This document shows, piece by piece, positions 26,713 to 41,262 of a stretch of DNA of 41,274 nt. Position numbers and translations under genes: made by a program. Below the pieces are notes generated by a model. That model worked only from the letters and a program-made list of their open reading frames with translations. It was not told the DNA's origin and ran no database searches. The stretch comes from a virus: positions 1 through 41,274 of IMG/VR virus record IMGVR_UViG_3300017987_000168; one strand, 5' to 3'. How positions within the stretch are numbered: the stretch's first letter is position 1; each line of letters opens with the position of its first letter.

Positions 26713-27012
26713 TCAGTCGTCGTCCTCCACCATGGCGGCCACTTCCACCGCGCGGATCGCGTCCCGGATGTCGGGGAGAGCCGCGGCCACCACGTCCAGG
26801 GCAGCCACCTCGTCGGCAGCCCACTGGCGCATGTAGGGCTCCTCCACTTGGATCCGGGTCCGCTCGGAGTCGTACCGCCCCTCCCCCACGGGGTACACGG
26901 TCACCCGGAACCGAGGGGCCGCTCCCCCGTTGGGGGTGGGGACGAACACCTTGTCGATCCGGAGGCCCAGGGTGATCGACTCGGCCACCGGCAACTTGGC
27001 GCCCTTGGTCAC
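26713..27012 (-). CDS. Small protein with acidic C-terminal motif
   Basis: A 99-residue protein. GTG 27012 overlaps the upstream stop as GTGA. It has beta-strands (ITLGLRIDKVFVPTPNG, then RFRVTVYPVGEGRYD), a helical part (MRQWAADEVAALDVVAAALP) and ends in VEVAAMVEDDD, the tail motif common in this block. Function unknown. It is the last gene of the small-gene array before the PQ-loop protein. Confidence 0.6.
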   Translation of the reverse strand: MTKGAKLPVAESITLGLRIDKVFVPTPNGGAAPRFRVTVYPVGEGRYDSERTRIQVEEPYMRQWAADEVAALDVVAAALPDIRDAIRAVEVAAMVEDDD

Positions 27013-27392
27013 TGGTCGCCCTCCAGCATTGCCGCGGCGGCGTACCCCATGGTGGGGGGGTCGTCGGGCGCGCCGGGGGGCTCCCCCATGGCCCCGATCC
27101 CCCACCCCAACTCGATGGCGGCACGGGCATCCAGTTGGATCAACCCCCGGGTGCCAGGGTTGCGCATCATGTACGCCACCCCCTCGTGGGGGTCCCGGAA
27201 GTAGGGCGGGGCCCGGTGCGCCCCCAGGGCGGCGCGGCCGTCGAACCTGTCCTTCCAGTAGGTCCGGGTCCGGCCCCCGGCGTACACCAGGCTGTTGACC
27301 TCCCCGCTGTCCGGGCGGGGCATCAAGGCCATGATCACCACGGGGGTGTCCCCGTTGAGAGTGTCCTCGCTGATCCTGCTCACCCCCACCAC
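27009..27392 (-). CDS. Small protein with AAAAML tail
   Basis: A 127-residue protein starting at GTG 27392, or at GTG 27389, directly after the upstream TAA. It has a possible beta start (TPVVIMALMPRPDSG), a basic aromatic stretch (TRTYWKDRFDGRAALG) and a C-terminal helix ending in GYAAAAMLEGDQ. Function unknown. Translationally coupled to its neighbours. Confidence 0.6.
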   Translation of the reverse strand: MVGVSRISEDTLNGDTPVVIMALMPRPDSGEVNSLVYAGGRTRTYWKDRFDGRAALGAHRAPPYFRDPHEGVAYMMRNPGTRGLIQLDARAAIELGWGIGAMGEPPGAPDDPPTMGYAAAAMLEGDQ

Positions 27393-27956
27393 TTACGCGG
27401 CGACACGAGCCCTGTGCTCGGTGGCCGCGTTGCGGAGGATGGCCTTGGTGTACCGGTACACGTGGTCCCTGCGGAGGCCCTTGAGGGCGTAGTTCTCCCA
27501 CAGCACTCGGGGGCGGTCCTCGATGTACGCGTCCACGGCCTTGTCGCTGGCCCCCATGCTGATCATGGCCCGCACCGACTCGCAGTAGGCCTGGACCTCG
27601 ATGGCCCACCGCCACCGAGTCCAGAACACGTACCGGGTGCGGAACTTGGTCGGCTCCCACCACCGCCACTGGCGGGCGTGGAACAGCTCGTGAGCCAGCA
27701 GCCGCGCCTTGGGGAACGGCTTGTAGTTCTGGGCCCCAGTCCCCAAGCGCAACTCCCGGTAGTACGTGGTGGACATCCGAGACAGGCGCCCCCAGTGGCT
27801 CGACTTGTTCTCGATCCGCAGCCCCAGGCGCTTGGCCTCGGCCTCGTACCGTGCCACCAACTCCTCGGGGGAGCGGTGGCGGTCCAGGTACTTGTCTCGC
27901 AAGCGGTCGTCCTCCGCCAGGCGGCGGTCACTTCGGCGGATCTTGATCAGTCCCAT
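27393..27956 (-). CDS. Metallopeptidase-like protein (HExxH)
   Basis: A 187-residue protein. Residues 89-93 are HELFH inside LLAHELFHARQWRWW, a zinc-binding HExxH, and a third ligand candidate is Glu120 in AIEVQAYCESV. The layout (HExxH, about 26 residues, then E) suits a gluzincin-like minimal peptidase, as in many phage-encoded and M78/SprT-like proteins. No signal peptide is seen. The N-terminal 30 residues are strongly charged. It could process a protein or cleave peptidoglycan; the substrate is unknown. ATG 27956 has AAGGGA upstream and lies inside the end of the zinc-ribbon gene before it. Confidence 0.65.
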   Translation of the reverse strand: MGLIKIRRSDRRLAEDDRLRDKYLDRHRSPEELVARYEAEAKRLGLRIENKSSHWGRLSRMSTTYYRELRLGTGAQNYKPFPKARLLAHELFHARQWRWWEPTKFRTRYVFWTRWRWAIEVQAYCESVRAMISMGASDKAVDAYIEDRPRVLWENYALKGLRRDHVYRYTKAILRNAATEHRARVAA

Positions 27957-28179
27957 GGTGGTCCCTTGGACACGGAGGATACTCCCCCAAGGGGCACGGT
28001 GGCGACAAGGACCCCCGCCCCCCGCACGTGGGGCACGTATCCCGGGAAAACCCCACCCCCGCGAGCCCCCGGAGGTCCACCCGCAGGGTTTGCATGATCT
28101 CCGGGGGGAGGACTTCGATCACCCGCCCTGAACCCCCGCACGTGGGGCACGCGGGAGGGCTAGTCCTGGCACGTGGCAT
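27928..28179 (-). CDS. DnaJ-type zinc-ribbon protein
   Basis: An 83-residue protein, ATG 28179. CPTCGGSG at 11-18 and CPTCGGRG at 49-56 are two exact copies of the DnaJ zinc motif half, spaced so that they can bind one zinc. There is no J domain or peptide-binding domain. Between them is IEVLPPEIMQTLRVDLRG, a possible helix and strand. It overlaps both neighbours, by 20 and 29 bases. Confidence 0.65.
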   Translation of the reverse strand: MPRARTSPPACPTCGGSGRVIEVLPPEIMQTLRVDLRGLAGVGFSRDTCPTCGGRGSLSPPCPLGEYPPCPRDHHGTDQDPPK

Positions 28180-28441
28180 CGGTGGTCTTAGGGGGCGGCA
28201 CCCGCCACCACGTGTGATCCGGGCCCACGTACACCTGATTGCGCTCCTCCACCGTCCGACCATCGCGCCCCCGCACGGCCTCAAAGCACTCCACCATGAG
28301 CGCATCCCGCCCGTTGGCGGTGGTGGGGGTGATGCTCCCGATCCGGTACACCGGCCCCATCAAGGCAGGCGCGGCCAAGTCGCCGCGCACCAGCGCGGTT
28401 CCCGGAACAAGCTCTGCCTCCACGATCATGCGGACGCGCAT
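28160..28441 (-). CDS. Small beta-rich protein, unknown
   Basis: A 93-residue protein with one of the best ribosome sites in the block (GGAGGAGG, 5 bases before ATG 28441). It has beta-strands with MIVEAELVPGTALVRGDLA, VYRIGSITPTTANG and RNQVYVGPDHTWWRVPP. This looks like a small barrel. Function unknown. Confidence 0.6.
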   Translation of the reverse strand: MRVRMIVEAELVPGTALVRGDLAAPALMGPVYRIGSITPTTANGRDALMVECFEAVRGRDGRTVEERNQVYVGPDHTWWRVPPPKTTDATCQD

Positions 28442-28530
28442 ACCACCTCCTCCGGGGGTGTGCCAACTGCGCCGGGTGGAGTGAGCAGATTGAAGGACGG
28501 TGGAGGTGGCGGTGTTTTGCAGTGGTCCAT
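28426..28530 (-). CDS. Possible 34-residue peptide
   Basis: An ATG at 28530 opens a 34-residue frame (MDHCKTPPPPPSFNLLTPPG and so on) that overlaps the start of the next gene by 16 bases. It is proline-rich and has no ribosome site, so it may simply be a leader region carrying the strong ribosome site of the 93-residue gene. The region has no other candidate. Confidence 0.2.
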   Translation of the reverse strand: MDHCKTPPPPPSFNLLTPPGAVGTPPEEVVCASA

Positions 28531-28537
28531 GGGCCGA

Positions 28538-28606
28538 TCAGCCTATCACCGCGTCCACCAGGAGGGTGGGCCCGTTGAGGACGCACGTGGTGGGGTGCCC
28601 TTTCAC
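28538..28606 (-). CDS. Possible 22-residue peptide
   Basis: A GTG overlapping the upstream TGA as GTGA opens a 22-residue frame (VKGHPTTCVLNGPTLLVDAV and two more). The GTGA coupling is like that of real genes here, but length and composition give little support. Confidence 0.2.
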   Translation of the reverse strand: MKGHPTTCVLNGPTLLVDAVIG

Positions 28607-29079: not shown

Positions 29080-29095
29080 ACCCACACCCTTGCGC

Positions 29096-29521
29096 CTAGT
29101 CGTGCGACACGGAAAGGGCGTCGCCCGTGATCGTCACGTCCGCCACCGCCACCGCGGCCACCCCATCCACGTCGGCAAGGGCCTTGGCTACTTCGGCCGC
29201 GGTGTAGGGGACCGGGCCCAGGTCGGCCATGGACGACTCGGGGTCGTTGGCCAAAAGCCACTCCGCGGCGGCGTCCTGGTCGGCCCATCCCGTCCCATCG
29301 CACGTGGAGCACAAGGTCATGCTGGCCTGGGCGCGAAACCGACGAGCCACCACGTCCTGGGGGGTGGTGGTGGAACGAACGTCCGGGGTGACCCCGGTCC
29401 CCTCACAGCAAGGGCACTCCACCCGGCCCACGGCGCGCTTGGCCGCGGCGATCTCCGCCGACAAGGCCGTTTCCAGGACGGCCTTCAGCCGCTGGCGTGT
29501 TTGGTCTGGGGTCTGTTCCAT
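29096..29521 (-). CDS. DnaJ-type zinc-ribbon protein with AAEWLL helix
   Basis: A 141-residue protein. An N-terminal helix (RLKAVLETALSAEIAAAKRA) is followed by CPCCEGTG at 36-43 and CSTCDGTG at 71-78, two DnaJ-type halves 35 residues apart, and then by DQDAAAEWLLANDPE, the helix found after the zinc motif in many genes here. The C-terminal 45 residues form a separate alpha/beta piece (YTAAEVAKALADVDGVAAVA). Function unknown. Confidence 0.65.
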   Translation of the reverse strand: MEQTPDQTRQRLKAVLETALSAEIAAAKRAVGRVECPCCEGTGVTPDVRSTTTPQDVVARRFRAQASMTLCSTCDGTGWADQDAAAEWLLANDPESSMADLGPVPYTAAEVAKALADVDGVAAVAVADVTITGDALSVSHD

Positions 29522-29739
29522 TGGGGAGCCACGTCCTCGATGTCATCGTACACCGCCTCGGCCTCGGCCTCGGGGTGCGTTCCGCAGTAAGGGCACGGCG
29601 CGCCGTCGTCCGGCTTGTAGTGCAGGGGAAACCCTGGTGAGGCAGAACACCACCTCCACCCCGGCGGGGGTTTGATCGGATCCCAGATCAACTGGTTGCC
29701 GTCCGCATCGTAGGCGTACACCCGCCCGGGGACCGCCAT
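29485..29739 (-). CDS. Small cysteine-pair protein
   Basis: An 84-residue protein, ATG 29739, forming TGATG with the previous gene. Residues 27-55 hold a Trp/Cys/Pro-rich stretch (PPPGWRWCSASPGFPLHYKP, then CPYCG), one complete CxxC plus a single upstream Cys. The N-terminus MAVPGRVYAYDADGNQLIWD is beta-like and the C-terminus acidic. The 3' end overlaps the next gene by 37 bases. Function unknown. Confidence 0.55.
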   Translation of the reverse strand: MAVPGRVYAYDADGNQLIWDPIKPPPGWRWCSASPGFPLHYKPDDGAPCPYCGTHPEAEAEAVYDDIEDVAPQWNRPQTKHASG

Positions 29740-29984
29740 CAGTCCCCTCCCTCCAGCATGGACTTGCTGGCGGCCAGTTTGAGCGCCGCGGCGATCACCT
29801 CGGCCCCATCGTACCCCAGCCGCAGGGTGAGCTTTACGGTAGGTTCTGCGCTGGCCGGGGCAGTAAGGGCCAGTTGATCCACCTGGACCCCGCTGTCCGC
29901 GCCCTTCTCCACCACGAACGCCACCGCGGCCCGAAGGCGGGCGTCCTGCTCCTTGCGGGTGATGGTCTTCTTCTTGGGGGGCAT
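29739..29984 (-). CDS. Small protein, paralogue of the gene at 35830-36108
   Basis: An 81-residue protein. It aligns along most of its length with the 92-residue product of 35830-36108: AAVAFVVEKGADSGVQVDQL here against AALATLVEFGPAAGVDVTHI there, then LTLRLGYDGAEVIAAALKL against LTVRVWGDGMETLAAAVKA. Both end in the block's tail motif (SKSMLEGGD here). The Lys-rich N-terminus MPPKKKTITRKEQDARLR could bind nucleic acid. Function unknown. Confidence 0.65.
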   Translation of the reverse strand: MPPKKKTITRKEQDARLRAAVAFVVEKGADSGVQVDQLALTAPASAEPTVKLTLRLGYDGAEVIAAALKLAASKSMLEGGD

Positions 29985-30298
29985 CAATCTTCCCCCAGGA
30001 GGCGCTGGGCGCACTCCTCCGCGGTGGTGAGGATCTTCCACTCCACCTTGACCCCCGCGGCTCGGCGGGCGTCCACGGCTCGGCGGGCTTTCTCGATCCA
30101 CCGCCGGTCCATGGCCGACGCGTTGGGAGCCTCCACCACCACGTGGACCACCCCGCCAAGGAAAACCTCCTTGACCGCGTAGGCCCGGAAGAACCCCGCG
30201 GCCACCCCACCATCCAGGAGCTTGGCCAGGTCGGCCCGGGTGAGGGCGTCGTCGTCGGCCGCCACCACGAACTCGGCCAGTTCCGGCCAGTCACTCAT
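29984..30298 (-). CDS. Small helical protein with acidic tail
   Basis: A 104-residue protein, ATG 30298 overlapping the upstream stop by 8 bases (ATG 30307 is an alternative). Helices and strands alternate: DWPELAEFVVAADDDALTRA, then FFRAYAVKEVFLGGVVHVVV. The end TTAEECAQRLLGED fits the common C-terminal tail. Function unknown. Confidence 0.6.
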   Translation of the reverse strand: MSDWPELAEFVVAADDDALTRADLAKLLDGGVAAGFFRAYAVKEVFLGGVVHVVVEAPNASAMDRRWIEKARRAVDARRAAGVKVEWKILTTAEECAQRLLGED

Positions 30299-30467
30299 GT
30301 TGATCATCCACCCCTCCCTTGGCCACCACGGACACGGCCCCCAGAAGCCCCAGGGCGGCCACCACGAACACCACCCACGCAGGCCACCACTGCTGACCCA
30401 CCCACGCGGCGGCAAAGGCCAGGACCACCCACACCACCACCCACACCAACGCGCGGCCGCGGGTCAT
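30291..30467 (-). CDS. Small two-span membrane protein
   Basis: A 58-residue protein, ATG 30467 (ATGA overlap). Two hydrophobic segments, at about 7-24 (LVWVVVWVVLAFAAAWVG) and 30-49, with a short polar end (GGVDDQHE). Positive N-terminus (MTRGRAL). Size and topology would suit a small holin or a membrane anchor, but it lies in the small-gene array rather than beside a recognised lysin. Function unknown. Confidence 0.6.
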   Translation of the reverse strand: MTRGRALVWVVVWVVLAFAAAWVGQQWWPAWVVFVVAALGLLGAVSVVAKGGVDDQHE

Positions 30468-30847
30468 CCCGGGTTCTCCATGAGCCACGCGGCGGCCTTG
30501 GCCTTCAAGATCCGCCGCCGGCCGCGGCACAGGTCGCACTTCTCCACCATGTTGGTGTTCATCCACGTGGCAGGGTCCCCGTACTCCGCCCCGTACTCGT
30601 CGTCGTGGTCCCACTCCGCCATCTGGGCCTCTACGGAGAACGGGTCGTAGTCCCGGTCGTAGTCGTCGTCGTTGTCGGCGGCCACCCCCGCCACCATCTG
30701 GCGAAGGCGGCGGACGGCGTCCTCCCCCGCGGGAGGGCGCTCCGTGCTGGGGTTCATGATCGACCCCTTCTCCACCTGGAGGCCTGTCCCACCGCACGAC
30801 GGGCACAGAACGAACTCCGCGGCAAGCACCCGGCGGTGATCCGTCAC
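30464..30847 (-). CDS. DnaJ-type zinc-ribbon protein with AAAWL tail
   Basis: A 127-residue protein. GTG 30847 overlaps the upstream stop as GTGA. CPSCGGTG at 15-22 and CDLCRGRR at 104-111 would be the two zinc halves, separated by a very acidic Asp/Tyr-rich stretch (DNDDDYDRDYDPFSVEAQ). It ends in KAKAAAWLMENPG, the helix typical of this block. Function unknown. Confidence 0.65.
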   Translation of the reverse strand: MTDHRRVLAAEFVLCPSCGGTGLQVEKGSIMNPSTERPPAGEDAVRRLRQMVAGVAADNDDDYDRDYDPFSVEAQMAEWDHDDEYGAEYGDPATWMNTNMVEKCDLCRGRRRILKAKAAAWLMENPG

Positions 30848-31500: not shown

Positions 31501-31772
31501 CAGTAGTTGTCCCTCACCACCCGCGGCCCCTGGGCGCAGTTGGGTTGCTGTACGGGGGCGCCCAGGGAGGCCACCACGTCGGCGCAGAACTCCCGCCCCT
31601 CCTCCGTGATCCGCCACTGGTAGGCGCACGTGGGGTTGATCGACACCAGCCCCCTGGCCGCCAGCCGTTTGGCCGCCGCGTTGTACCCGTTGACCGGGTG
31701 ATTGTCGTGCCCCTCGGCGGCGCACTTCCACAACGCCACCAGGAGGACCAAGTCGTTGATGCAGTGGGTCAT
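31500..31772 (-). CDS. Winged-helix-like protein
   Basis: A 90-residue protein with ATG 31772 (ATGA overlap). The pattern VNGYNAAAKRLAARGLVSI, then YQWRITEEGREFCADVVASL is that of a winged-helix fold: recognition helix, a short wing and a closing helix. Similar patterns are seen in the gene at 40783-41262. It could bind DNA or act as a regulator of the array. The last 20 residues are extended. Confidence 0.5.
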   Translation of the reverse strand: MTHCINDLVLLVALWKCAAEGHDNHPVNGYNAAAKRLAARGLVSINPTCAYQWRITEEGREFCADVVASLGAPVQQPNCAQGPRVVRDNY

Positions 31773-32011: not shown

Positions 32012-32016
32012 ACCCC

Positions 32017-32364
32017 CTACTTGCGCGGGTCCTGGCCATTCCGTACTGCGTTCTGCGCCGCCGCGGTGTCCCGGAGCACCTTTTCGGCGGCGGCCACCAA
32101 CCCCAGGATGTCCCGGGCCCCCTCGTGGTCCAGGTTCACCTTCCCCTCCAGGGTCACCAGCCGCCGGCGGCTGAACTTGGCCACCAGCTCCCCCAGGACC
32201 AGGAGGGCCATGTCCCGCTGGTCGCACGCGGCTTCGTTCATGGCCGACACCCGCTCCAGGCGGCCGGTGATCTCCTGGCACGCGGCCAGGGCCTGCTCGG
32301 CCACCTCCAGGTACTCCTTGGCCAGGATCCGGTACTTGGCGGCCTCGTGGGTGAAGTCAGTCAT
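32017..32364 (-). CDS. Helical protein, unknown
   Basis: A 115-residue all-helical protein, ATG 32364 in the 8-base overlap ATGACTGA. Its pattern (EAAKYRILAKEYLEVAEQAL, then ARDILGLVAAAEKVLRDTAA) suggests a helical bundle with a short basic middle (KFSRRRLVTLEGKVNL). The C-terminus ends NAVRNGQDPRK, so the acidic tail is absent. Function unknown. Confidence 0.6.
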   Translation of the reverse strand: MTDFTHEAAKYRILAKEYLEVAEQALAACQEITGRLERVSAMNEAACDQRDMALLVLGELVAKFSRRRLVTLEGKVNLDHEGARDILGLVAAAEKVLRDTAAAQNAVRNGQDPRK

Positions 32365-32599
32365 CGTCGGTCAGCAGTTCGTTGGCAGCCAGGTTTACGA
32401 TAGGGTGGAGGGACCCGCTCCAGCCTGCCCGACACGCGGCCATCACGTCCACTCGGTTGAGCCCCCCGCACAGGGGGCACGCGGCCATCCCGCGGTTCTT
32501 GCCGATCGGCGGGCCGGGGACTTGGCCCCTCCCCTGGCACTGGGGACAGGTGGCGGTACCGCGCCCCGTGGCGCGTGTGCCCGCAAGTCCCCTGCGCAC
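32357..32599 (-). CDS. Zinc-ribbon protein with AANELL tail
   Basis: An 80-residue protein, GTG 32599 directly before the upstream TAG. CPQCQGRG at 18-25 and CPLCGGLN at 41-48 form a two-half ribbon. It ends in NLAANELLTDDD, a clear copy of the tail motif. A further Cys at 56 is unpaired. Function unknown. Confidence 0.65.
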   Translation of the reverse strand: MRRGLAGTRATGRGTATCPQCQGRGQVPGPPIGKNRGMAACPLCGGLNRVDVMAACRAGWSGSLHPIVNLAANELLTDDD

Positions 32600-33303: not shown

Positions 33304-33308
33304 GTCTC

Positions 33309-33327: not shown

Positions 33328-33618
33328 CTAGTCGTCCATGTCCAGCAGCTCCTGCGCGGTGGGGCGCCGGAGATCCACGGCGGGGCAGTAGTACCGTCCC
33401 CCGCTGTCGAACCCGCCCACCAGGGCGCTCTTGGACAAGTCCTGGGACAGCACCATCCACGTGGCCGACCCGTCGTGCCGCGGCCCCCGGCCACCGTCCC
33501 GGTTGGGGGCGCACGCCCGGAGGACCGTCACGGGGATCGCCTTCCAGTCCCCGAACAGGATGGGGACCATCAGGGTGGTCCCGTTGGCCGCAGCGGCGGC
33601 CACCTCCTCGTCGGTCAC
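33328..33618 (-). CDS. Array protein with TAQELL tail
   Basis: A 96-residue protein starting at GTG 33618 (GTGA). It has an N-terminal helix (DEEVAAAAANGTTLMVPILF), then strands and loops with GRYYCPAVDLRRPTAQELLD and ends in MDD. The end is shared in form with the genes at 33615, 34187 and 34826, which also have a basic beta-strand followed by xTAxELL or xTAADLL. Probably one small family with different N-terminal parts. Function unknown. Confidence 0.6.
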   Translation of the reverse strand: MTDEEVAAAAANGTTLMVPILFGDWKAIPVTVLRACAPNRDGGRGPRHDGSATWMVLSQDLSKSALVGGFDSGGRYYCPAVDLRRPTAQELLDMDD

Positions 33619-33908
33619 GTCCACAACCCCGTGAAGTCCGGGATGGAGATCCACGCCGGGGCCGGCGGGGCCTGGACTTCCCCGGTGAGCAACTCGGCCG
33701 CGGTGGCTAGGCGGATGTCCGCGAAGTTCCGGTTGAAGATCCGGGTCCCCAACTGGACCCGCCCGTACCGCTCCCCAAACCGGGGGACGCACACGTCCAG
33801 GGTGTCCATCACCCGAAAGTCCAGCGCCTCCCCCTGCGGGGTGTAGCGCACGTAACTCACCACGGGGAGGTTGTCCTCCACGGCGCGCCTGAACTCCGCC
33901 TCAGTCAT
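33615..33908 (-). CDS. Array protein with ATAAELL motif
   Basis: A 97-residue protein, ATG 33908 overlapping the upstream stop by 8 bases. Beta-rich (LPVVSYVRYTPQGEALDFRV, then RYGRVQLGTRIFNRNFADIR) with the motif LATAAELLTGE, followed by a short tail rich in Pro and Trp. It belongs with the three neighbours that carry the same motif, but here 20 residues follow it. Function unknown. Confidence 0.6.
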   Translation of the reverse strand: MTEAEFRRAVEDNLPVVSYVRYTPQGEALDFRVMDTLDVCVPRFGERYGRVQLGTRIFNRNFADIRLATAAELLTGEVQAPPAPAWISIPDFTGLWT

Positions 33909-34194
33909 GGTCCTCCACCATGGCCTTGGCGGCCGCGTTGGCGTACTCCTCCCGAAGGGCCAGGAGCTTCCCCCACCGAGCGCACGGGAGGCACCGGGAC
34001 CCATCCCCGGCACACTGGCAGTCGTGGGCCATGGCGATCTCCAGGGCCTCCCCGATCCGGGGATCGCACAGGACCCGGATGGCCGCGTCTCGCTCCTGCT
34101 CGGCCTTGGTGAGGGCGGACTCCAAGCCCTGGGCGGCGCGGCCCCCCAGGGGGTTGGCGTCCCTGGCCACATCTCGCACTGTCCGTTTAGTCAT
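33901..34194 (-). CDS. Helical protein with cysteine cluster and AAKAMV tail
   Basis: A 97-residue protein, ATG 34194. A long helix (GLESALTKAEQERDAAIRVL) is followed by HDCQCAGDGSRCLPCARW, four cysteines that could bind one zinc, and the end NAAAKAMVEDHD. The overlap with its upstream neighbour is 8 bases (ATGACTAA). Function unknown. Confidence 0.6.
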   Translation of the reverse strand: MTKRTVRDVARDANPLGGRAAQGLESALTKAEQERDAAIRVLCDPRIGEALEIAMAHDCQCAGDGSRCLPCARWGKLLALREEYANAAAKAMVEDHD

Positions 34195-34579
34195 CGGCCA
34201 CCAGCAGTTCCGCGGCGGTCAGCCGCCGCACGTGTTGTCCTTCCACGTGCCCCCGCCCGCTGTGATGCACGTCCTTGTACCGATCCCCCGCCCCGGGGAC
34301 CAACTTGGCGGCCAGGATGAACTCCACCACCACCTCGTGGCAGGTCCGATTGTGGGCCATGGACCGCACGCTCACGTCCACCATGGTGGCGGGGACCCAC
34401 TCCCGCATGGGCACCGTGGTGATCGTGCTCGCAGGGCTCGACGCGGTGAACCACCCCATGGGGTCGAACGCCACCGCGTCCTTGCGCTCCAGGTGGACCA
34501 TCACCACCTCCCCCCGAAGGGCCAAGTCCCGCAGGGTCTCGGCACGTTCAAGCACCTCCCGCGCGATGTCACCCCGCAT
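34187..34579 (-). CDS. Array protein with LTAAELL tail
   Basis: A 130-residue protein, ATG 34579 chosen because the frame before it is unlike the rest. Helix at the start (DIAREVLERAETLRDLAL), then strands (EVVMVHLERKDAVAF, then VPATMVDVSVRSMAHN) and HEVVVEFILAAKLVPGAG. Ends in VRRLTAAELLVADD. It overlaps the neighbour by 11 bases. Function unknown. Confidence 0.6.
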   Translation of the reverse strand: MRGDIAREVLERAETLRDLALRGEVVMVHLERKDAVAFDPMGWFTASSPASTITTVPMREWVPATMVDVSVRSMAHNRTCHEVVVEFILAAKLVPGAGDRYKDVHHSGRGHVEGQHVRRLTAAELLVADD

Positions 34580-34829
34580 GAGGGTCCTCCCAGGGGAGAG
34601 AGTCGTACTCGCAGTCATCGGGCGGGTCCAGGTGGCGTTCCAGGTAGCAATCGCGCCACGCCTTGGCCACAGCCCGCGCCTGGTCCCGCTCCGCGGTGAG
34701 GGCCTCCTCCTGGTCCAAGATCCACCGGAGAGCAGACGCCTCCTGGGCGTCATACGATCCCCCATAGCGAGCCTTGAGGTGGGCCAACCGGCGCTCCAGG
34801 AACTGCCGCCGTTCCGATCGCTTGGTCAT
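34569..34829 (-). CDS. Small helical protein, unknown
   Basis: An 86-residue protein, ATG 34829 (ATGA). Mostly one long helical stretch (RRQFLERRLAHLKARYGG, then EEALTAERDQARAVAKAWRD) with an acidic end (LDPPDDCEYDSLPWEDPHAG). It lacks the tail motif. Possibly a coiled-coil partner. Function unknown. Confidence 0.6.
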   Translation of the reverse strand: MTKRSERRQFLERRLAHLKARYGGSYDAQEASALRWILDQEEALTAERDQARAVAKAWRDCYLERHLDPPDDCEYDSLPWEDPHAG

Positions 34830-35089
34830 GGGCCCTCCACGAGCAGGTCGGCGGCGGTGGCCACCCGCACTTGGTCCGGCCACAGCCAGAAGTGGCCACT
34901 CGCCACAGCGCTCGGAACGTCCCCCCGGAACGGGAGGGACGTGCCCCCCAGGGTGTCCGCCCCCTTGACATACTTCACCACCATCCCGGCGTTGGTCCCC
35001 TCCCGCATGACGAACAGGGCCCCCTGTGCGGCCAGGCGCACCACGTCTCGCCGTTGGAGCGGGAGCGAAGTTACCGGTTGATCAGCCAC
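34826..35089 (-). CDS. Array protein with ATAADLL tail
   Basis: An 87-residue protein. GTG 35089 has GGGGGAGG 8 bases upstream and overlaps the upstream gene by 19 bases. A GTG at about 35047 is the alternative. Beta-rich (GALFVMREGTNAGMVVKYVK, then SGHFWLWPDQVRVATAADLL) and ends VEGP. Same tail arrangement as 33328, 33615 and 34187. Function unknown. Confidence 0.55.
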   Translation of the reverse strand: MADQPVTSLPLQRRDVVRLAAQGALFVMREGTNAGMVVKYVKGADTLGGTSLPFRGDVPSAVASGHFWLWPDQVRVATAADLLVEGP

Positions 35090-35334
35090 TGGGCGGCCTC
35101 CCCCTTGGTCACGGTCTTGTATCCTTGGCACAGTGGACACTTGCGCTGCTCCCCCGTCCGTGTGTACTCCCACGCGGCGGCGCGGCGGATCGCCTCGTCG
35201 GGTTGGACGGGGCCGCCCCGCGCCGCGTGTGCGTCTCGGATCCACCCCGCATCGAAGTCGCACCAGGGGGCGCCATTGTTCTGGGTGTCCCCTGTCCCGT
35301 AACACCCCGGGCACTCGATCCGGTGGTCATCCAT
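35071..35334 (-). CDS. Zinc-ribbon protein with AAQWL tail
   Basis: An 87-residue protein, ATG 35334 (8-base overlap). CPGCYGTG at 8-15 and CPLCQGYK at 66-73 form the two halves, with a helical region between (WIRDAHAARG, then PDEAIRRAAAWEYTRTGEQ). Ends KGEAAQWLINR. The helix without an acidic tail marks it as a variant of the family. Function unknown. Confidence 0.65.
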   Translation of the reverse strand: MDDHRIECPGCYGTGDTQNNGAPWCDFDAGWIRDAHAARGGPVQPDEAIRRAAAWEYTRTGEQRKCPLCQGYKTVTKGEAAQWLINR

Positions 35335-35635
35335 CGTCCCCCTCCACCATCACCTTGGCCGCGGCGGCCTGGAGGACCGCGTCCCAGTCGTGGCCCCCGT
35401 ACTTCTGGGCCAGGCGGCACAGGTCGGCTAGCACCCGCACGTTGTGCAGGGTGGTGTGGATCTCGGCACGGACCATGGTCCCCCGATGCTCCCGGACGGC
35501 CATGCCCACAGGGGTGTGCTCCTCCGCGTAGTCGTGTTCCATGGACAGGGTGTGGATCCCCGCCCACCGAAGGGCGTCCAGGAGGTCGTGGTACTCGTCG
35601 GCCCCGGCCGGGGGCTCGGAACTACGGCGAGCCAT
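35327..35635 (-). CDS. Helical protein with AAAKVMV tail
   Basis: A 102-residue protein, ATG 35635. Helical with YHDLLDALRWAGIHTLSMEH, VREHRGTMVRAEIHTTLHNV and LADLCRLAQKYGGHDWDAV, ending QAAAAKVMVEGDDG. Conserved-looking His residues could bind a metal. Function unknown. Confidence 0.6.
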   Translation of the reverse strand: MARRSSEPPAGADEYHDLLDALRWAGIHTLSMEHDYAEEHTPVGMAVREHRGTMVRAEIHTTLHNVRVLADLCRLAQKYGGHDWDAVLQAAAAKVMVEGDDG

Positions 35636-35843
35636 GGCCCTCCTTGGCGGCCGCGTCGGCGCTCACGATCTCGTCGTACCGCTCCTCCGGGCTGTGCAAG
35701 GTGGACCCCAGAACCCGCTCCACCAAGGCGATCCCCGCGGCCCGCTCCTCGGCCGACCCCTTGGGGGCGGTGCCGTAGCACCAGGCCAAATACCGCAGGC
35801 TCCGGTTGTTGGGGTCCAGGTACCGCCGCTTAGGTGGGGTCAT
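35622..35843 (-). CDS. Small protein, unknown
   Basis: A 73-residue protein, ATG 35843, overlapping both neighbours by 14 bases. Basic start (MTPPKRRYLDPNNRSLRYLA), a helix (AEERAAGIALVERVLGST) and the end YDEIVSADAAAKEGHGSP, a weak version of the tail. Function unknown. Confidence 0.55.
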   Translation of the reverse strand: MTPPKRRYLDPNNRSLRYLAWCYGTAPKGSAEERAAGIALVERVLGSTLHSPEERYDEIVSADAAAKEGHGSP

Positions 35844-36108
35844 CGGGGGCCTCCAGGAGCTTCTTGGCCACGTACGCCTTGACCGCGGCGGCCAGGGTCT
35901 CCATGCCGTCCCCCCACACCCGAACGGTAAGGCGCGTTTCCAACTCCGCCTCCGGGGCCGCGCTCCCCAGGGCCTCGATGTGGGTCACGTCCACCCCGGC
36001 GGCCGGGCCGAACTCCACCAAGGTGGCCAAGGCGGCGGACTGATCCCGCCTCTTGGCACGGGACGCGGCCATCTCCCGGCGGTGGCGGGCTGCTGGGTCC
36101 TCTGCCAT
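35830..36108 (-). CDS. Small protein, paralogue of the gene at 29739-29984
   Basis: A 92-residue protein, ATG 36108 (TGATG). The alignment with the 81-residue paralogue covers almost the whole of that protein; the N-termini differ (here RHRREMAASRAKRRDQSAAL). The end is AYVAKKLLEAPDDPT. Both have a strand pair followed by a helix and the tail. They lie 6 kb apart in the same operon-like block, so the array probably grew by duplication. Function unknown. Confidence 0.65.
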   Translation of the reverse strand: MAEDPAARHRREMAASRAKRRDQSAALATLVEFGPAAGVDVTHIEALGSAAPEAELETRLTVRVWGDGMETLAAAVKAYVAKKLLEAPDDPT

Positions 36109-36650
36109 CACCCGCCCCCCATGGCCCGGAGGAGGGCCTTGGCGCAGTCCTGGACGGGGTACCCCTGGGGCGGGTGGTACCGCCACACGTGGCGGGCCCC
36201 CAGGCCGTCCGGGTCGTCCGCCAGGGCGCCAAGGAACTCCCGGTCCAAGGTGTACCCCGGCCACGTCACCACCCGGGAGGCCCACACGTCCAGGGGGACG
36301 GGGTCGGGGAGCCCCGGGCGGGGGAGGATCGCGGTGGACCGCAGGAGAACGGCCGCCTCATCCACCACCCGGATCGCCCCCATGGCGTCGTTGGTGGCCC
36401 GCTCCCCGTAGTCGCCCCCCACGATCTCCATGAGGGCCGCGGCGGTGGCCTCCAACTCGGCCAGGTTGTACCCGAACTGGATGTGGCCGGCGGCCACCAC
36501 ATTCCCCCCGGTGTGCTCCCAGGGGACCTGCGCGTCGGGCTTGCCCTGGTTGCGCCTGTCCGCGCGGGACCAGTACAGGGCGTCAAACACCTTCATGCGC
36601 AGGTCGGCGGGGATCAGGACTCGCCTCTCGGCCAGTTTCATGGTCTTCAC
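36108..36650 (-). CDS. Unknown 180-residue protein with DCAKALL tail
   Basis: Start GTG 36650 overlaps the upstream stop as GTGA; ATG 36641 is the alternative. Helical with a strand at the start (RRVLIPADLRMKVFDALYWS), then NVVAAGHIQFGYNLAELEAT and DAMGAIRVVDEAAVLLRSTA. Ends YPVQDCAKALLRAMGGG, which resembles DMDCANALLLAHED at the end of the 40783-41262 gene. Function unknown. Confidence 0.6.
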   Translation of the reverse strand: MKTMKLAERRVLIPADLRMKVFDALYWSRADRRNQGKPDAQVPWEHTGGNVVAAGHIQFGYNLAELEATAAALMEIVGGDYGERATNDAMGAIRVVDEAAVLLRSTAILPRPGLPDPVPLDVWASRVVTWPGYTLDREFLGALADDPDGLGARHVWRYHPPQGYPVQDCAKALLRAMGGG

Positions 36651-37216
36651 TGTCCCCCCTTGAGCATGGCGTCGGCCTTTGTGTTGGCGGGGACCAGGGC
36701 CACCAAGGCGTTGACCTGCGCCGGGGTCATGGTGATCTCGGCCTTGCGGTCGTTCCAGTTGCGGTCCACGTGCTCCCCGATCAGCATCCCCACCAACTCG
36801 GCGGCGGCATTGGCCGCGTCCCGGTAGCCCGCCTTGGCGTCCTGCTTGATCTGCCGAGCGGCGTGCTCGGCCTCCTCCACGGTGGCGTCCCCTTCGGCGT
36901 ACTGGATCAGGCCCAGGCTCACGCTGGTGGGCGCCCCCCACGTCCCGCTTTCGTGCCACTGCTCGATGATGGCGTGAGGGGCGGGGTCCTTGGCCCTGGA
37001 CTTCCGCCTGCGCTCATCCCGGGTGAACGTCACCACCTTCCTCTCGCGCCTCCCGGTCTGGGGGTTCCACTTGTGGCGGATCTCGCAGTCCTCGTCGGCC
37101 TTGACGATCCGAATCCGCACACGGGGGGCACCCTTGCGGGCCGGGGCCAGGGAGCAGATCCGGCCGGGGGTGAGCTTCTCCTGCTTGCGCTTCCAGTTGG
37201 TGGTGGTCTTCGGCAT
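36647..37216 (-). CDS. Basic protein, unknown
   Basis: A 189-residue protein, ATG 37216. The N-terminal third is basic (TTTNWKRKQEKLTPGRICSL, then ETGRRER-like and TFTRDERRRKSRAKD), so nucleic-acid binding is likely. The second half is helical (EEAEHAARQIKQDAKAGYRD, then MTPAQVNALVALVPA) and ends TKADAMLKGGQ, a variant of the tail. A 31-base gap precedes it without a clear promoter. Function unknown. Confidence 0.6.
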   Translation of the reverse strand: MPKTTTNWKRKQEKLTPGRICSLAPARKGAPRVRIRIVKADEDCEIRHKWNPQTGRRERKVVTFTRDERRRKSRAKDPAPHAIIEQWHESGTWGAPTSVSLGLIQYAEGDATVEEAEHAARQIKQDAKAGYRDAANAAAELVGMLIGEHVDRNWNDRKAEITMTPAQVNALVALVPANTKADAMLKGGQ

Positions 37217-37247
37217 GTAGGGTTCTTGCGCCGCTGGGAAAGGGTGG

Positions 37248-37688
37248 TCACCGGCCGCCCCGGGCCGCCGAACTGTAGAACCGGAGGCGAACTCGGAACC
37301 GCTCGTCGTCCTCTCCCGGGCGGCGGGTGGCCCCGTATGCCTGGGCCAACCTGTCCAGGCCACTCCCGTGGGCCGTGTTGATCGCGGCGAACGCCGTGGT
37401 CCCGTCCCCGTCCTCCTCCAGCATGGCCTGGGCCGCCAGGGGGCGGACGGCCGCGGCCACCTCGGGGCGCACAACCCCCGCCCCCCGGCACCAGGGGCAT
37501 AGGCGGCTCAAGCCGTGGAACTTGACGTAGGGCCACCCCCGGCACCAGGGGCACACCTCCGTGTCCGCGGCCGTCCGCTGGCGCCGGTTGCGCTCGTTGC
37601 ACCGGCTCCAGTCCCAGTCCGGGGCCTCGGGGTAGAACGCCCCGGCCACGATCCGGTGGTCGGCCCGGATGGGAAGGGGGCCGCTCAC
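37248..37688 (-). CDS. Zinc-ribbon protein with AAQAMLEED motif
   Basis: A 146-residue protein, GTG 37688 (GTGA). CPWCRGWP at 46-53 and CPWCRGAG at 64-71 form the ribbon and are unusual in having Trp in the centre. LAAQAMLEEDGDG follows. After that comes an extra helical, Arg-rich domain of about 50 residues (LDRLAQAYGATRRPGEDDER). Function unknown. Confidence 0.65.
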   Translation of the reverse strand: MSGPLPIRADHRIVAGAFYPEAPDWDWSRCNERNRRQRTAADTEVCPWCRGWPYVKFHGLSRLCPWCRGAGVVRPEVAAAVRPLAAQAMLEEDGDGTTAFAAINTAHGSGLDRLAQAYGATRRPGEDDERFRVRLRFYSSAARGGR

Positions 37689-38020
37689 TGGTCGGCGCTC
37701 CCGTCCAGCATGGCCGCGGCGGCCCGGCCCGGGGTCACCCACCGAACCCCCAGGCAGCAGGAGCAGTCGTTGTAGGCCACGGGGGGCAAGTCCACCCGCC
37801 GAATCACCCCCGTCCCGGCGCAGTACCCGCAGGCGTGTTTCCCCAGGCTCGGACTGGCCAGGCGGCCGGTCCCGTCACACGCCACGCACGGGACGTACCC
37901 GCACACGGGGCACAGGACATCGGCGGCCGCGGGGGTGGTGTCAGCGGCCGCGGCGGCGGCTTCCCCGCCGGGGGAAGGGTGTTCCGAAGGGGCTTGGGAA
38001 CGGGCTTCCGACTTGGGCAC
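37685..38020 (-). CDS. Zinc-ribbon protein with four CxxC
   Basis: A 111-residue protein, GTG 38020 soon after the upstream TAG. An Ala/Pro-rich start of 35 residues, then CPVCGYVPCVACDGTG (37-52), CGYCAGTG (64-71) and CSCCLGVR (86-93), four CxxC, enough for two zinc sites as in the DnaJ central domain. Ends TPGRAAAAMLDGSADQ. Function unknown. Confidence 0.65.
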   Translation of the reverse strand: MPKSEARSQAPSEHPSPGGEAAAAAADTTPAAADVLCPVCGYVPCVACDGTGRLASPSLGKHACGYCAGTGVIRRVDLPPVAYNDCSCCLGVRWVTPGRAAAAMLDGSADQ

Positions 38021-38026
38021 GGTGTT

Positions 38027-38497
38027 CTACTTCTTTCGCGCGCGCGATGGAGTTCGGGTGAGCCACCGGGCCATCCTGGGGAAACGGTCCAAAACGGCCT
38101 CCAGCAGGTTGCCAAGGCCCTTCCCCACGTGGTCGTGGTCGTGGACCACCCGGCGCTTGGCGGGGGCGGGGTCCAGGTGGACCTTGCCCATGTCGTCCAC
38201 CACCACGTGGTACGGGATCTCCCCTGCCGCCCTGGCGGCTCGTTCCATGGCTTGGTTGAACTGGCGGGCGGACTTCCCTGCTTGGCGGACCCCCTGAACG
38301 GCGTAGGTGTGCCAGGCGATCCCCGCGGGGTAGCTCACCTCGGGGCGGGGATCGTCGTCGTCCCCATGTTCCAGGAGCCACTGGGCCGCCTGTTCGGGTG
38401 TGCATTGGCCTACGTCCAGGCAGCAGGGGCACGACTCGGCGTTGTAGTTGCGGAGTTCCGGGGTGCAGGCCGGGCACGGCACGAGGTTGTGGGTCAT
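38027..38497 (-). CDS. Zinc-ribbon protein with extra C-terminal domain
   Basis: A 156-residue protein, ATG 38497 (ATGA). CPACTPEL at 8-15 and CPCCLDVG at 23-30, then TPEQAAQWLLEHGDDDDP, the clearest copy of the post-zinc helix and acidic tail. About 105 residues follow: a helix (SARQFNQAMERAARAAGEIP), a strand pair (YHVVVDDMGKVHLDPAPA) and a basic end (RTPSRARKK). So the helix and tail unit can be internal and need not end the protein. Function unknown. Confidence 0.65.
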   Translation of the reverse strand: MTHNLVPCPACTPELRNYNAESCPCCLDVGQCTPEQAAQWLLEHGDDDDPRPEVSYPAGIAWHTYAVQGVRQAGKSARQFNQAMERAARAAGEIPYHVVVDDMGKVHLDPAPAKRRVVHDHDHVGKGLGNLLEAVLDRFPRMARWLTRTPSRARKK

Positions 38498-38931
38498 GGG
38501 CCCTCCTTAGCGGCGTCGATCGCGCGGGTGAAGGCGTCCACCAGGCGGTCAGGGTCCACGCTGGTCCCCACCTCCGTGTTGATGGTGATCCGGTGGATGC
38601 GCGGGTGGAGGAACCCCTCCAGTTCCGGGTCGGCGGCCAGGATGGCGGCGGCCGCGGCGCCGGGGGAGCACCGCCCTTCTCCCCCGCACGTGGGGCACGT
38701 GCGCTGGTAGTGCCACGTCCCCTGGGGCATGTACCGCCGGGGTGTCCCGTCCTTGGACAGCCACGCGTCGGCGTCCTCCCGGGAGCATGACTCCGTGCAT
38801 TGCTCCCCCCTCCCGGCGCCGCACGTGGGGCACTCGTGGACCAGGGCGCGCTGGTGAGGGGAGAGCACGTCCCGGTTGGGGTGGTGACTCAAGTCGCACG
38901 TGGGGCACGTCACCAGGGCGGGGTCAGTCAT
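38494..38931 (-). CDS. Zinc-ribbon protein with tape-measure-like end
   Basis: A 145-residue protein, ATG 38931 in the 8-base overlap ATGACTGA. CPTC at 9-12, CPTCGAGR at 34-41 plus two more Cys (45, 49), CPTCGGEG at 79-86, then SPGAAAAAILAADPELEG. The last 35 residues (HRITINTEVGTSVDPDRLVD and AFTRAIDAA) resemble the end of the tape measure (HKMVVHQDLRNQDPDRVIGA and FYRAVDRS). Function unknown. Confidence 0.65.
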   Translation of the reverse strand: MTDPALVTCPTCDLSHHPNRDVLSPHQRALVHECPTCGAGRGEQCTESCSREDADAWLSKDGTPRRYMPQGTWHYQRTCPTCGGEGRCSPGAAAAAILAADPELEGFLHPRIHRITINTEVGTSVDPDRLVDAFTRAIDAAKEGP

Positions 38932-39163
38932 CGGTGGCGCACCTGCACTGGATGTGGAGGGGAGGGGTCCCGAAGGGAGACCCCACTGGCTCGTCGGCCG
39001 CCAGTAGGGCCGCGGCCACGTGATTGCGGTACGCGGCGGCGTCCTCCGGGGGAACTCGGCCGTACCCTGCGCACTCGTCGCACGGCAGGGGAGGGTCGTA
39101 GGTCCCGGGCTCGGCCCGCCCGCCGTGGCAGTGAGGGCAGGTGACCAGGGTGGAATCAGGCAT
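38924..39163 (-). CDS. Small zinc-ribbon protein
   Basis: A 79-residue protein, ATG 39163. CPHCHGGR at 9-16 and CDECAGYG at 28-35 form the ribbon. PPEDAAAYRNHVAAALLAAD holds the helix. The short end contains CRC (73-75) and DD. Overlaps both neighbours by 8 bases. Function unknown. Confidence 0.65.
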   Translation of the reverse strand: MPDSTLVTCPHCHGGRAEPGTYDPPLPCDECAGYGRVPPEDAAAYRNHVAAALLAADEPVGSPFGTPPLHIQCRCATDD

Positions 39164-39506
39164 CGTCTTCCTCCATGAGGCGGCGGTACATCTCCGGGTG
39201 GATGGCCACCGTCGCGGGAACCGGGACCGGTTTGGCGTTTCGAAGGATCTCCGCGGCCCGGCGGACATCGGCGGCGGTGAGGGCCCCGGGGGTGGGGTCG
39301 TCTTCCAGGATCAGGGCCGCGGCGGCCTTGTCGGGGGTGGTGTGGCCGGCGCCGTCGCACACAGGGCACAGACCCGTCCCGTGGCACGCAGGGCACTCCA
39401 CCCACCCGCTGCTGCTCACGGCCTGCTTGCCCGTGCCGTCGCACGCCCTGCACCGCACGGTCTCCCCGTGGCACAGAGGGCACGGGACTTGGCGTTCTCC
39501 GTCCAC
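39156..39506 (-). CDS. DnaJ-type zinc-ribbon protein, four CxxC
   Basis: A 116-residue protein, GTG 39506. CPLCHG (9), CRACDGTG (19), CPACHGTG (38) and CPVCDGAG (47) give the full set of four CxxC of a DnaJ cysteine-rich domain. TPDKAAAALILEDD follows, then a second helix (LTAADVRRAAEILRNAK) and the end YRRLMEEDDA. There is no J domain. A TAGGTT box ends 5 bases before the GTG, so a leaderless mRNA is likely. Confidence 0.65.
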   Translation of the reverse strand: MDGERQVPCPLCHGETVRCRACDGTGKQAVSSSGWVECPACHGTGLCPVCDGAGHTTPDKAAAALILEDDPTPGALTAADVRRAAEILRNAKPVPVPATVAIHPEMYRRLMEEDDA

Positions 39507-39511
39507 GTCCC

Positions 39512-39517
39512 AACCTA
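39512..39517 (-). promoter_or_regulatory. Possible leaderless promoter -10 (TAGGTT)
   Basis: In the 31-base gap 39507-39537, minus-strand TAGGTT ends 5 bases before GTG 39506. No ribosome site is visible. Confidence 0.4.
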
Positions 39518-39537
39518 GCGCGGCGGGACCGCGGTCG

Positions 39538-39999
39538 TCACGGGGGGATCGTGGCGGGGATGTAGATGTCGGTGACCTGCCGGGGCGGCCCCGTGAGCTT
39601 GCGGAACGTGCCCCGGAGGCGGCGGTTGGCGTCGTTGTCGGGGTTGGTCCCGATGGGGCCGCTCGCGCCCAGGGTGTCCGGGACCGGAACGTCCGCCAGG
39701 GTGCGTGCCTGGATCGTCTCCACGGGGACCCGGCGCAGAGCGTCCTGGGCGGTCATCTTCTCCACGTCCTCCCCCCGAAGGCCCTGCTCGCGATAGAACC
39801 GCTCGATGTCGATCGCCTCCTGGTCGTTCACCTCCGCCCCCAAGGCGCCGGTGACCCGGGTGATGGGGATGGTGAGGGCGCCGACCCACGTGGGCGGGGT
39901 GGGGTCCACCGACACGTCCATGGCCTTGCCGGCCGGGCCGTCGAAGTACCACTGCACGGTGCGGGTGCGGATCTCGGATAGCGAGACAACGGCGGCCAT
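39538..39999 (-). CDS. Unknown 153-residue protein
   Basis: ATG 39999 with a TAGAAT box 9 bases upstream and no clear ribosome site. Start with strands (MAAVVSLSEIRTRTVQWYFD, then WVGALTIPITRVTGALGAEV) and a helix region (QEAIDIERFYREQGLRGEDV, then KMTAQDALRRVPVETIQAR). It ends with RLRGTFRKLTGPPRQVTDIY and extended residues. It has no zinc or tail motif. The acidic-to-basic layout and strand start might suit a virion protein. No family recognised. Confidence 0.6.
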   Translation of the reverse strand: MAAVVSLSEIRTRTVQWYFDGPAGKAMDVSVDPTPPTWVGALTIPITRVTGALGAEVNDQEAIDIERFYREQGLRGEDVEKMTAQDALRRVPVETIQARTLADVPVPDTLGASGPIGTNPDNDANRRLRGTFRKLTGPPRQVTDIYIPATIPP

Positions 40000-40008
40000 A
40001 GGCCGCCG

Positions 40009-40017
40009 ATTCTACCA
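40009..40017 (-). promoter_or_regulatory. Possible promoter, extended -10 (TGGTAGAAT)
   Basis: The 24-base gap 40000-40023 contains TGGTAGAAT on the minus strand, the best extended -10 match in the window, 9 bases before ATG 39999. An mRNA from it would have almost no leader. Confidence 0.45.
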
Positions 40018-40023
40018 CGGGAG

Positions 40024-40326
40024 TCACCCGTTGAGGAGGGCCCTGGCCCCAACGTCCCGGGGGACCGTCTTGGCCCCCTGGCACAGTGAGCACGGGACGT
40101 TGCCCCTCCCCCCGCAGTTGGGGCAGTCGTGGGACCCCTTGGGGTCCTCCCCGTCCCCCTGGCACTCCCTGCACACCTCCGTGCCGAAGGCGTAGTCCTT
40201 GGCACCCCCGCAGTCCTGGCAGGGGACCATCACCCGACGACCCCCCTCCAGGGTGGGGTGCTGTCCATGCTCGTCGCAGCGGTGGCAGCGTCCCCAGCAG
40301 GCCGGACAGGGGACCCGGTCAGTCAT
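40024..40326 (-). CDS. Zinc-ribbon protein, six CxxC
   Basis: A 100-residue protein, ATG 40326 in the 8-base overlap ATGACTGA. CxxC at 7, 14, 36, 52, 68 and 79, most followed by a Gly-rich DnaJ-like half (CRECQGDG, CPNCGGRG, CSLCQGAK). It is close to a complete DnaJ cysteine-rich domain plus an extra pair. The end VGARALLNG is a short form of the tail. Function unknown. Confidence 0.65.
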   Translation of the reverse strand: MTDRVPCPACWGRCHRCDEHGQHPTLEGGRRVMVPCQDCGGAKDYAFGTEVCRECQGDGEDPKGSHDCPNCGGRGNVPCSLCQGAKTVPRDVGARALLNG

Positions 40327-40687
40327 GGTCCCCTTGTCGGGCCGTCCACACCGGCAGGCCGGTGCGCAGGGCCTCCTGGCGTGCCTGGGACACGACCCGG
40401 AGCCTCCCATCCCAGTCCGCCCCCGGGGGGTCGTCCTGGTCCATGAGCCACTGGGCGGCCTGGGCCCTGGTGACGGTCCCTTCCCCGTGGAGTTCTCCGC
40501 ACAGGTCACACGCGGCGAACCCTGTGCCGCCGCAGGCGCCACACCACCCCTGGCTGTCCTCCGGGTCCCCGAACCCGGACCCGTCGCAGTAGGGGCAGGT
40601 GGCGCTTTGGGCCACGTCGGCGCAGGCGGGGCACTGGATGGCCTCCTGGGCGGCAAGCACGTCGGCCGCGGTAGTGTCGTCGGTCAT
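40319..40687 (-). CDS. DnaJ-type zinc-ribbon protein with AAQWLMD motif
   Basis: A 122-residue protein, ATG 40687 with a run of G upstream. CPAC (19), CPYCDGSG (31), CGACGGTG (49) and CDLCGE (60) give four CxxC, then TRAQAAQWLMDQDDPP and a 30-residue Arg-rich end (DGRLRVVSQARQEALRTGLP). It is the first gene after the terminator at 40721-40760. Function unknown. Confidence 0.65.
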   Translation of the reverse strand: MTDDTTAADVLAAQEAIQCPACADVAQSATCPYCDGSGFGDPEDSQGWCGACGGTGFAACDLCGELHGEGTVTRAQAAQWLMDQDDPPGADWDGRLRVVSQARQEALRTGLPVWTARQGDHD

Positions 40688-40720
40688 ACCCCCCCCTCTA
40701 TCGCCGCGCGCCCAAGGCGT

Positions 40721-40760
40721 AAAGAAACCCGCCGACCTACCAGGGGGCGGGTCGGCGGGT
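40721..40760 (-). terminator. Rho-independent terminator
   Basis: On the minus strand ACCCGCCGACC (40760-40750) pairs perfectly with GGTCGGCGGGT (40737-40727) around a 12-base loop and is followed by TTCTTT. It lies 23 bases after the stop at 40783 and separates this gene from the next at 40687. Confidence 0.8.
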
Positions 40761-40782
40761 GGCCGGGGGGCGGGGTGGCGGC

Positions 40783-41262
40783 CTAGTCCTCGTGGGCCAG
40801 GAGGAGGGCGTTGGCGCAGTCCATGTCGTACCGGGCGGCGAAGCGGACCAACTGGGACCCACGGGGGACCCGGTAGGTGAGTTCCACGAACGTGGACCCG
40901 CACCCGTCGTCCACCTTCTTGCGGTCGGTGACCCGGATGAACCCCCGGTTCTCCAGGGCTCGGATGGCGCCGCTCTGGGCCCGGGTGACCCCCTCGATCC
41001 GGCCGCGGCGGAACTGGCGGGTGGACGATGGTGCCCGAAGGACCCCCCGGCCCATGGCGATCAGCATCTCCCGCGCGGCGGCGTTGAGCTTGGACCACAC
41101 CGCCTCGGGGTCCACCCCCTGGGGGATCGACCCGATGGGCTTGTGCATGATGCGGAGGCACCACGCCATCTGCTCGGCGCGGGGGGACATGCCGTACAGG
41201 TACACCCGGCTGCCGTTGTAGTCCCCCGTGGTGGACTTGTAGTGCTCATACGTGGCCGTCAC
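40783..41262 (-). CDS. Winged-helix-like protein, perhaps 5' partial
   Basis: A 159-residue protein with GTG 41262 as the first start inside the window. The frame is open to the edge, so the true start may lie outside. The region AREMLIAMGRGVLRAPSS, then RIEGVTRAQSGAIRALENRG and FIRVTDRK is a winged-helix pattern: helix, recognition helix, wing. It may be a regulator or DNA-binding protein. The C-terminus (MDCANALLLAHED) is a copy of the tail motif found downstream, which ties it to the array. The terminator at 40721 follows. Confidence 0.55.
   Translation of the reverse strand: MTATYEHYKSTTGDYNGSRVYLYGMSPRAEQMAWCLRIMHKPIGSIPQGVDPEAVWSKLNAAAREMLIAMGRGVLRAPSSTRQFRRGRIEGVTRAQSGAIRALENRGFIRVTDRKKVDDGCGSTFVELTYRVPRGSQLVRFAARYDMDCANALLLAHED

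Follow-up and report, generated by a model that had tools for sequence, protein, structure and literature searches.

The internal proteins of T4 are diverse small phage proteins with only a short terminal targeting sequence in common, and DarB of P1 likewise has a signal (PMC3012670, PMC9026906, PMC9024508); the capsid-targeting sequence (CTS) of T-even phages gathers diverse internal proteins into the head core. In Anti-TRAP (RtpA), a C-terminal helix following a zinc ribbon forms a three-helix bundle trimer (PMC11255114), and metal-ion-dependent adhesion sites (MIDAS) bind acidic substrate side chains in CbbQO (PMC4660213) and probably in NorQD (PMC9976466), while a MoxR-vWA-peptidase pair has been suggested to take part in assembling jumbo-phage virions (PMC7824862). 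Here, we analyzed a short helical unit, usually with an acidic end, that recurs on small proteins encoded by a linear IMG/VR virus record (IMGVR_UViG_3300017987_000168; 41,274 bases, approximately 70% GC, no tRNA genes), the whole of which is referred to as the window. Its carriers lie in an array of 40 called small genes on the minus strand at 26713-41262, the range over which a first-pass annotation had reported a similar helix and acidic tail on otherwise unrelated proteins. Genes are named below by their lower coordinate.

The unit has the consensus [A/T/C]-A-x-x-[L/M/W]-[L/V/I/M], often with D or E next, and was found in 26 of the 40 array genes; one further copy in the plus-strand gene 8954-9385 brings the window to 27. 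Its core consists of a small residue and an Ala, then two positions that vary and a pair of large hydrophobic residues, with Ala three residues ahead of the pair in nearly all units (all but about one of those aligned). As annotated, the unit is usually terminal (18 of 26); gene 38027-38497, given as the sole internal case, proved to be one of eight, together with 29096, 33615, 37248, 38494, 38924, 39156 and 40319. In terminal copies, two to seven residues follow the hydrophobic pair, with a peak at four (exactly four in 9 of 18), and at least two of the residues after the pair are acidic in 12 of 18. All genes encoding the tails first quoted show a strong coding signal in GC content at third codon positions.

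A tail pattern (A..[LMWI][LMVI].{2,8}$ with at least one D or E) matched 12 of the 40 array genes, against an expectation of 0.76 ± 0.90 from shuffling of the terminal 20 residues, and its rate was 0-3% in the same phage's structural genes, in the related phage G002 and in five GC-rich control sets (Streptomyces phages Kromp and mu1/6, Myxococcus phage Mx8, Komagataeibacter phage phiKX1 and GC-rich IMG/VR loci). Without the acid requirement, the helix part was present in 17 of 40 genes, and in a strict form in 16 of 40 against 0.38 expected; after dropping the zinc-ribbon genes described below and one paralogue, it was still present in 10 of 27 against 0.30 expected. Within the C-terminal 16 residues of the array proteins, there were 29.7 units per 1000 residues, compared with 1.0 in the phage's other proteins. 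Both the pattern and the unit definition were composed after the tails had been seen, and the less biased test is therefore a de novo expectation-maximization motif search. This search gave a log-likelihood ratio of 148.8 on the tails against 116.1 ± 6.6 in shuffles (maximum 125.9), five standard deviations above, and recovered [AT]A..[LM][LV]E[AG]D without supervision, while none of three control sets rose above its own shuffles. The similar helix and acidic tail are thus real, and shuffles, GC-rich control phages and the motif search together exclude an artefact of GC or Ala/Asp composition, including the frequency expected of Ala/Leu/Asp-rich termini.

Conservation could be followed in two carriers, the only ones with homologues in G002 (68,356 bases; DNA approximately 72% identical to the window across aligned parts), and both homologues keep the unit at an overall identity below 30%. 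One is a DUF6744 protein encoded on the sister contig G001 (59,745 bases), which matches window positions 1-33343 at 99.9% and adds 26 kb. This protein (L007:17253-18146) ends in AQALLEDDED and its 29%-identical G002 homologue in AHALLVEDED; this end ranks third among 42 pairs for excess conservation. The two proteins are homologous at E 2e-22, and against PF20529 (DUF6744, cut-off 27 bits) the G002 protein scores above the cut-off (49.3 bits) and the G001 protein below it (22.3 bits). The other carrier, 8954-9385, lies outside the annotated range, has a subterminal LAQAMLTADDD (9329..9361, plus strand) and has KRR..xA..MLT.D in common with a G002 homologue at 63807-64250 that is 27% identical to it and terminates in AEKMLTED; no further homologues were found beyond this phage and G002. 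The two genes differ in location: the window phage has its copy among structural (tail) genes, and G002 has it in a small-gene region (L011:3807-4250). Because the unit is far above chance, lies mostly in one module and is kept in these two diverged homologues, a shared, selected helical unit is supported.

AlphaFold models are consistent with a helix. In 40319, the only array carrier modelled (overall pLDDT 74), the unit lies in a predicted helix at residues 74-84, followed by a loop, with a mean pLDDT of 88 in the block 71-80. The model of the DUF6744 protein (pLDDT 84) finishes with a helix spanning residues 274-296 of 297 and thus places the acidic residues inside that helix, not in a flexible tail. 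Neither model had a significant PDB match, and no function was assigned to DUF6744 from its fold. Codon agreement across units, set against the prediction from codon usage, was 0.41 versus 0.36 for Leu, 0.68 versus 0.81 for Asp and 0.65 versus 0.73 for Glu; these values, near or below prediction, argue against recent copying of the tail as DNA. Ala codons are an exception, agreeing more than predicted (0.67 versus 0.44).

The claim that the carriers are mutually unrelated did not survive comparison of their bodies. Eleven belong to a single family of zinc-ribbon paralogues, in which a DnaJ-type ribbon is followed by the unit, so the carriers are not all independent. In this family, the unit is internal in 40319-40687 (AAQWLMDQDDP, 40430..40462, in the predicted helix), 39156-39506 (AAALILEDDPT, 39294..39326; the protein itself terminates in MYRRLMEEDDA), 38924-39163 (VAAALLAADEP, 38987..39019), 38494-38931 (AAAAILAADPE, 38623..38655), 38027-38497 (AAQWLLEHGDD, 38360..38392), 37248-37688 (AAQAMLEEDGD, 37404..37436) and 29096-29521 (AAEWLLANDPE, 29240..29272). 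It is terminal in 40024-40233 (GARALLNG, 40024..40050, no acidic residue), 37685-38020 (AAAAMLDGSADQ, 37685..37723), 35071-35334 (AAQWLINR, 35071..35100, not acidic) and 30464-30847 (AAAWLMENPG, 30464..30499). Genes 29739 and 35830 are also paralogues, and R-x-T-A-x-[ED]-L-L follows a probable strand in four proteins, one copy being internal. The remaining bodies, compared with the last 22 residues removed, showed no convincing similarity. From these sequence comparisons, the unit is therefore common to several families, fewer than twenty.

Translation signals overlap many of the acidic ends. The Shine-Dalgarno sequence GGAGG, read as x-E-G/D and lying 3-7 bases ahead of the next start, is embedded in the tail codons of six genes: 35830-36108 (VAKKLLEAPDDPT, 35830..35871), 35327-35635 (AAKVMVEGDDG, 35327..35362), 34826-35044 (TAADLLVEGP after a probable strand, 34826..34858), 33901-34170 (AAKAMVEDHD, 33901..33933), 29739-29984 (ASKSMLEGGD, 29739..29771) and 27009-27392 (AAAAMLEGDQ, 27009..27041). 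GATGA overlaps contribute Asp to tails. Start codons of following genes are overlapped only slightly more often by tail genes (12 of 18) than by genes without a tail (12 of 22), and coupled genes without a tail also end in EGP, EGA or EDP-like sequences. In uncoupled genes, the unit is nevertheless present in 5 of 15 against 0.39 expected, and the acidic end persists in 40783-41262 (CANALLLAHED, 40783..40818; next start 95 bases away), 33328-33624 (TAQELLDMDD, 33328..33360; 24 bases) and 26713-27012 (EVAAMVEDDD, 26713..26745; 21 bases). Shine-Dalgarno sequences and start overlaps thus account for some of the acidity in coupled genes, but not for the helix; the acidic tail of the first-pass annotation stands as a frequent feature with this qualification. 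For 34187-34579 (TAAELLVADD, 34187..34219), coupling is possible if the neighbour's start is the upstream ATG, and 32357-32488, or a longer form of it (AANELLTDDD, 32357..32389), overlaps the next start with no Shine-Dalgarno match found. The other terminal copies are KADAMLKGGQ in 36647-37216 (36647..36679) and CAKALLRAMGGG in 36108-36650 (36108..36146), neither acidic, and CAQRLLGED in 29984-30307 (29984..30013); the internal TAAELLTGEVQ of 33615-33908 (33672..33704) has 23 residues after the pair.

Among the explanations considered, we favor, at somewhat less than an even chance, a docking element that brings diverse accessory proteins to one common partner. A short amphipathic helix, usually acidic-ended, on many otherwise different small accessory proteins would allow one partner to gather the carriers, or the carriers to assemble together via the helix; its Ala-Ala/Leu-Leu stripe (positions i, i+1, i+4 and i+5) would pack on the partner, and the acidic end would contribute charge contacts. 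Several observations weigh against this. Acidic residues after the pair are missing altogether from four of the 18 terminal copies. Free loss in homologues, named as a refuting outcome, was not seen in the two testable pairs, but in unrelated phages the DUF6744 homologues retain an A-x-x-A-x-L helix end and lack its acids. Seven of the 11 zinc-ribbon carriers place the unit a constant 10 residues beyond their last CxxC, and the helix may thus be part of the fold in that family. The 8954 copy is followed by extra residues missing from its G002 homologue, the relatives G002, G008 and G009 are rich in small genes yet have few or no such tails, and no binding partner was found. A less probable account is that a few gene families, encoding zinc ribbons, small beta proteins and helix proteins, expanded while keeping an ordinary C-terminal helix, the acids being mostly a by-product of GGAGG and GATGA, with no common partner needed. 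The two sets of paralogues, the six embedded GGAGG sites, the 12 overlapping tail genes and the similar ends of coupled genes without a tail all speak for it, as do the ordinary T-x-x-E type caps with which the helices open. Coupling, however, is unable to produce an A-A-x-x-L-L helix, and overlap is about as frequent in genes without the tail. The presence of the unit in uncoupled genes, the lack of convincing similarity among bodies outside the zinc set and the one pair, and conservation of the unit below 30% identity also speak against this account. The docking tag proposed at first is thus upheld as to a shared, selected helix; a single partner or adaptor for all carriers is something we infer, and some of the sharing reflects paralogy. 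Polar C-termini stabilize bacterial proteins, and an acidic cap could in the same manner protect small proteins whose Ala/Leu-rich ends attract tail-specific proteases. The acidic residues next to the Ala/Leu ends fit this idea, which we regard as very unlikely, as it leaves unexplained the recurrence of the helix, its internal copies and its absence from other GC-rich phages.

The surroundings of the DUF6744 gene suggest a candidate that might read the tail, as in both G001 and G002 this gene adjoins genes for a MoxR-like AAA+ ATPase and a DUF2201 metallopeptidase-VWA protein (L007:13969-18146, corresponding to G001 53969-58146; L008:10125-13833 in G002). The three-gene set is complete in both phages and partial in many IMG/VR loci, and the MIDAS residues D-x-S-x-S, T and D are intact in both VWA proteins. 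Given this adjacency, the acid-binding MIDAS sites of CbbQO and probably NorQD (PMC4660213, PMC9976466) and the jumbo-phage proposal (PMC7824862), the ATPase and VWA protein might recognize the tail, with its acidic end binding the MIDAS metal and marking substrates for remodelling or cleavage. Some marine phages have a gene between the ATPase and VWA genes whose product ends in TASLLEDD or KLLGDD. We nonetheless consider this reading improbable because loci with the same VWA gene have no general tail excess (12 of 1958, compared with 1.1% in shuffles); across phages, a MoxR/VWA tag for the whole set is unsupported. The acidic end is also missing from most DUF6744 homologues, and several array units are not acidic. 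In the marine-phage loci L031, L033, L034, L049, L040 and L047, a gene lying between the ATPase and VWA genes, or next to them, encodes a protein with the ending SLLEDD, SLLGDD or KLLGDD. The DUF6744 gene is additionally neighboured by genes for a sigma-70 region 2 protein and a ParB-like protein (L007:18219-18812 and L007:18835-19473).

The window derives from a contractile-tail phage, with the sheath encoded at 10221-12761 and the major head protein at 17577-18992. Comparison of head proteins places Streptomyces phage Kromp, at 34%, and two Komagataeibacter phages, at 31%, nearest to it among cultured phages, and G008 and G009 are more distant relatives with sheaths shared at approximately 50%. 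A terminase scan matched a contig of a Gammaproteobacteria metagenome-assembled genome (76%), which may be misbinned, and no host was therefore assigned. The search for the same tail in other phages, proposed in the first-pass annotation, turned up no second tail-rich phage, and the array has so far been seen in one phage. No array homologues were found in G008 or G009, INPHARED yielded no relatives of the array proteins apart from one match of Cys repeats to a huge phage, and IMG/VR contained no relative of 36647; the DNA pattern for AA[QE]WL[LM] followed by D/E gave 11 IMG/VR matches, none with a comparable zinc-ribbon tail. In G009 (L125-L129), several small genes near 10483-16886 and 47649 have a similar N-terminus (MTNAT, MTNAA), as if related phages reused gene starts and not gene ends. 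Within the tail array, 27393-27956 encodes a 187-residue protein without the unit, which had no match in Pfam or PHROG; its HELFH (HExxH) sequence suggests a small zinc metallopeptidase.

On a tentative extension of the docking reading, the helix would be an address label sending approximately twenty small accessory proteins, perhaps anti-defense factors, to a single destination, for example the core of the prohead or an AAA+ machine of the phage, and would serve as a modular tag for newly grafted proteins. If so, small phage genes of unknown function could be understood as clients of a single system and not as twenty unconnected problems, the label would predict which new proteins join, and it would represent a C-terminal counterpart of the T4 CTS, possibly usable for cargo loading. 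If only paralogy and coupling are at work, the array is instead a warning that embedded ribosome-binding sites shape protein ends.

In the libraries searched, no known family has this tail, as the first-pass annotation had also stated. The sequence AAQWLLEHGDDDD in 38027 has a weak UBA_7 match (E 4.3e-4; 20.6 bits against a curated cut-off of 27), which covers only the last, third helix of the UBA domain in a protein that is otherwise a zinc ribbon, and is most likely a coincidence. With Anti-TRAP, the eleven paralogues have in common a zinc ribbon followed by a helix, although the helix is mostly internal here, and proteins lacking a zinc ribbon carry the unit too. Anti-TRAP (2zp9) was the top Foldseek match to the 40319 model, not significantly (E 2.9); the Pfam matches are below cut-off and cover the zinc part only (PF15777, 17.5 bits against 32), and neither phmmer nor the zinc-family profile retrieved an Anti-TRAP chain. 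The likeness to CbbQO, NorQD and RavA-ViaA is that such a pair adjoins a tail-bearing protein here and that VWA MIDAS sites bind acidic residues, whereas the array is not general in phages with this pair. To our knowledge, no terminal helix is common to the known substrates of MoxR/VWA systems as a mark. The P1 Dar proteins, unlike the carriers described here, have no shared consensus. The T4 CTS lies at the N-terminus and is cut off by the prohead protease, whereas every carrier has the unit at its C-terminus or internally, with no evidence of cleavage; nevertheless, in each case a short sequence is common to otherwise diverse small phage proteins, here by the enrichment tests. The CTS is the closest working analogy, and we propose that the unit could follow a similar logic in gathering its carriers.

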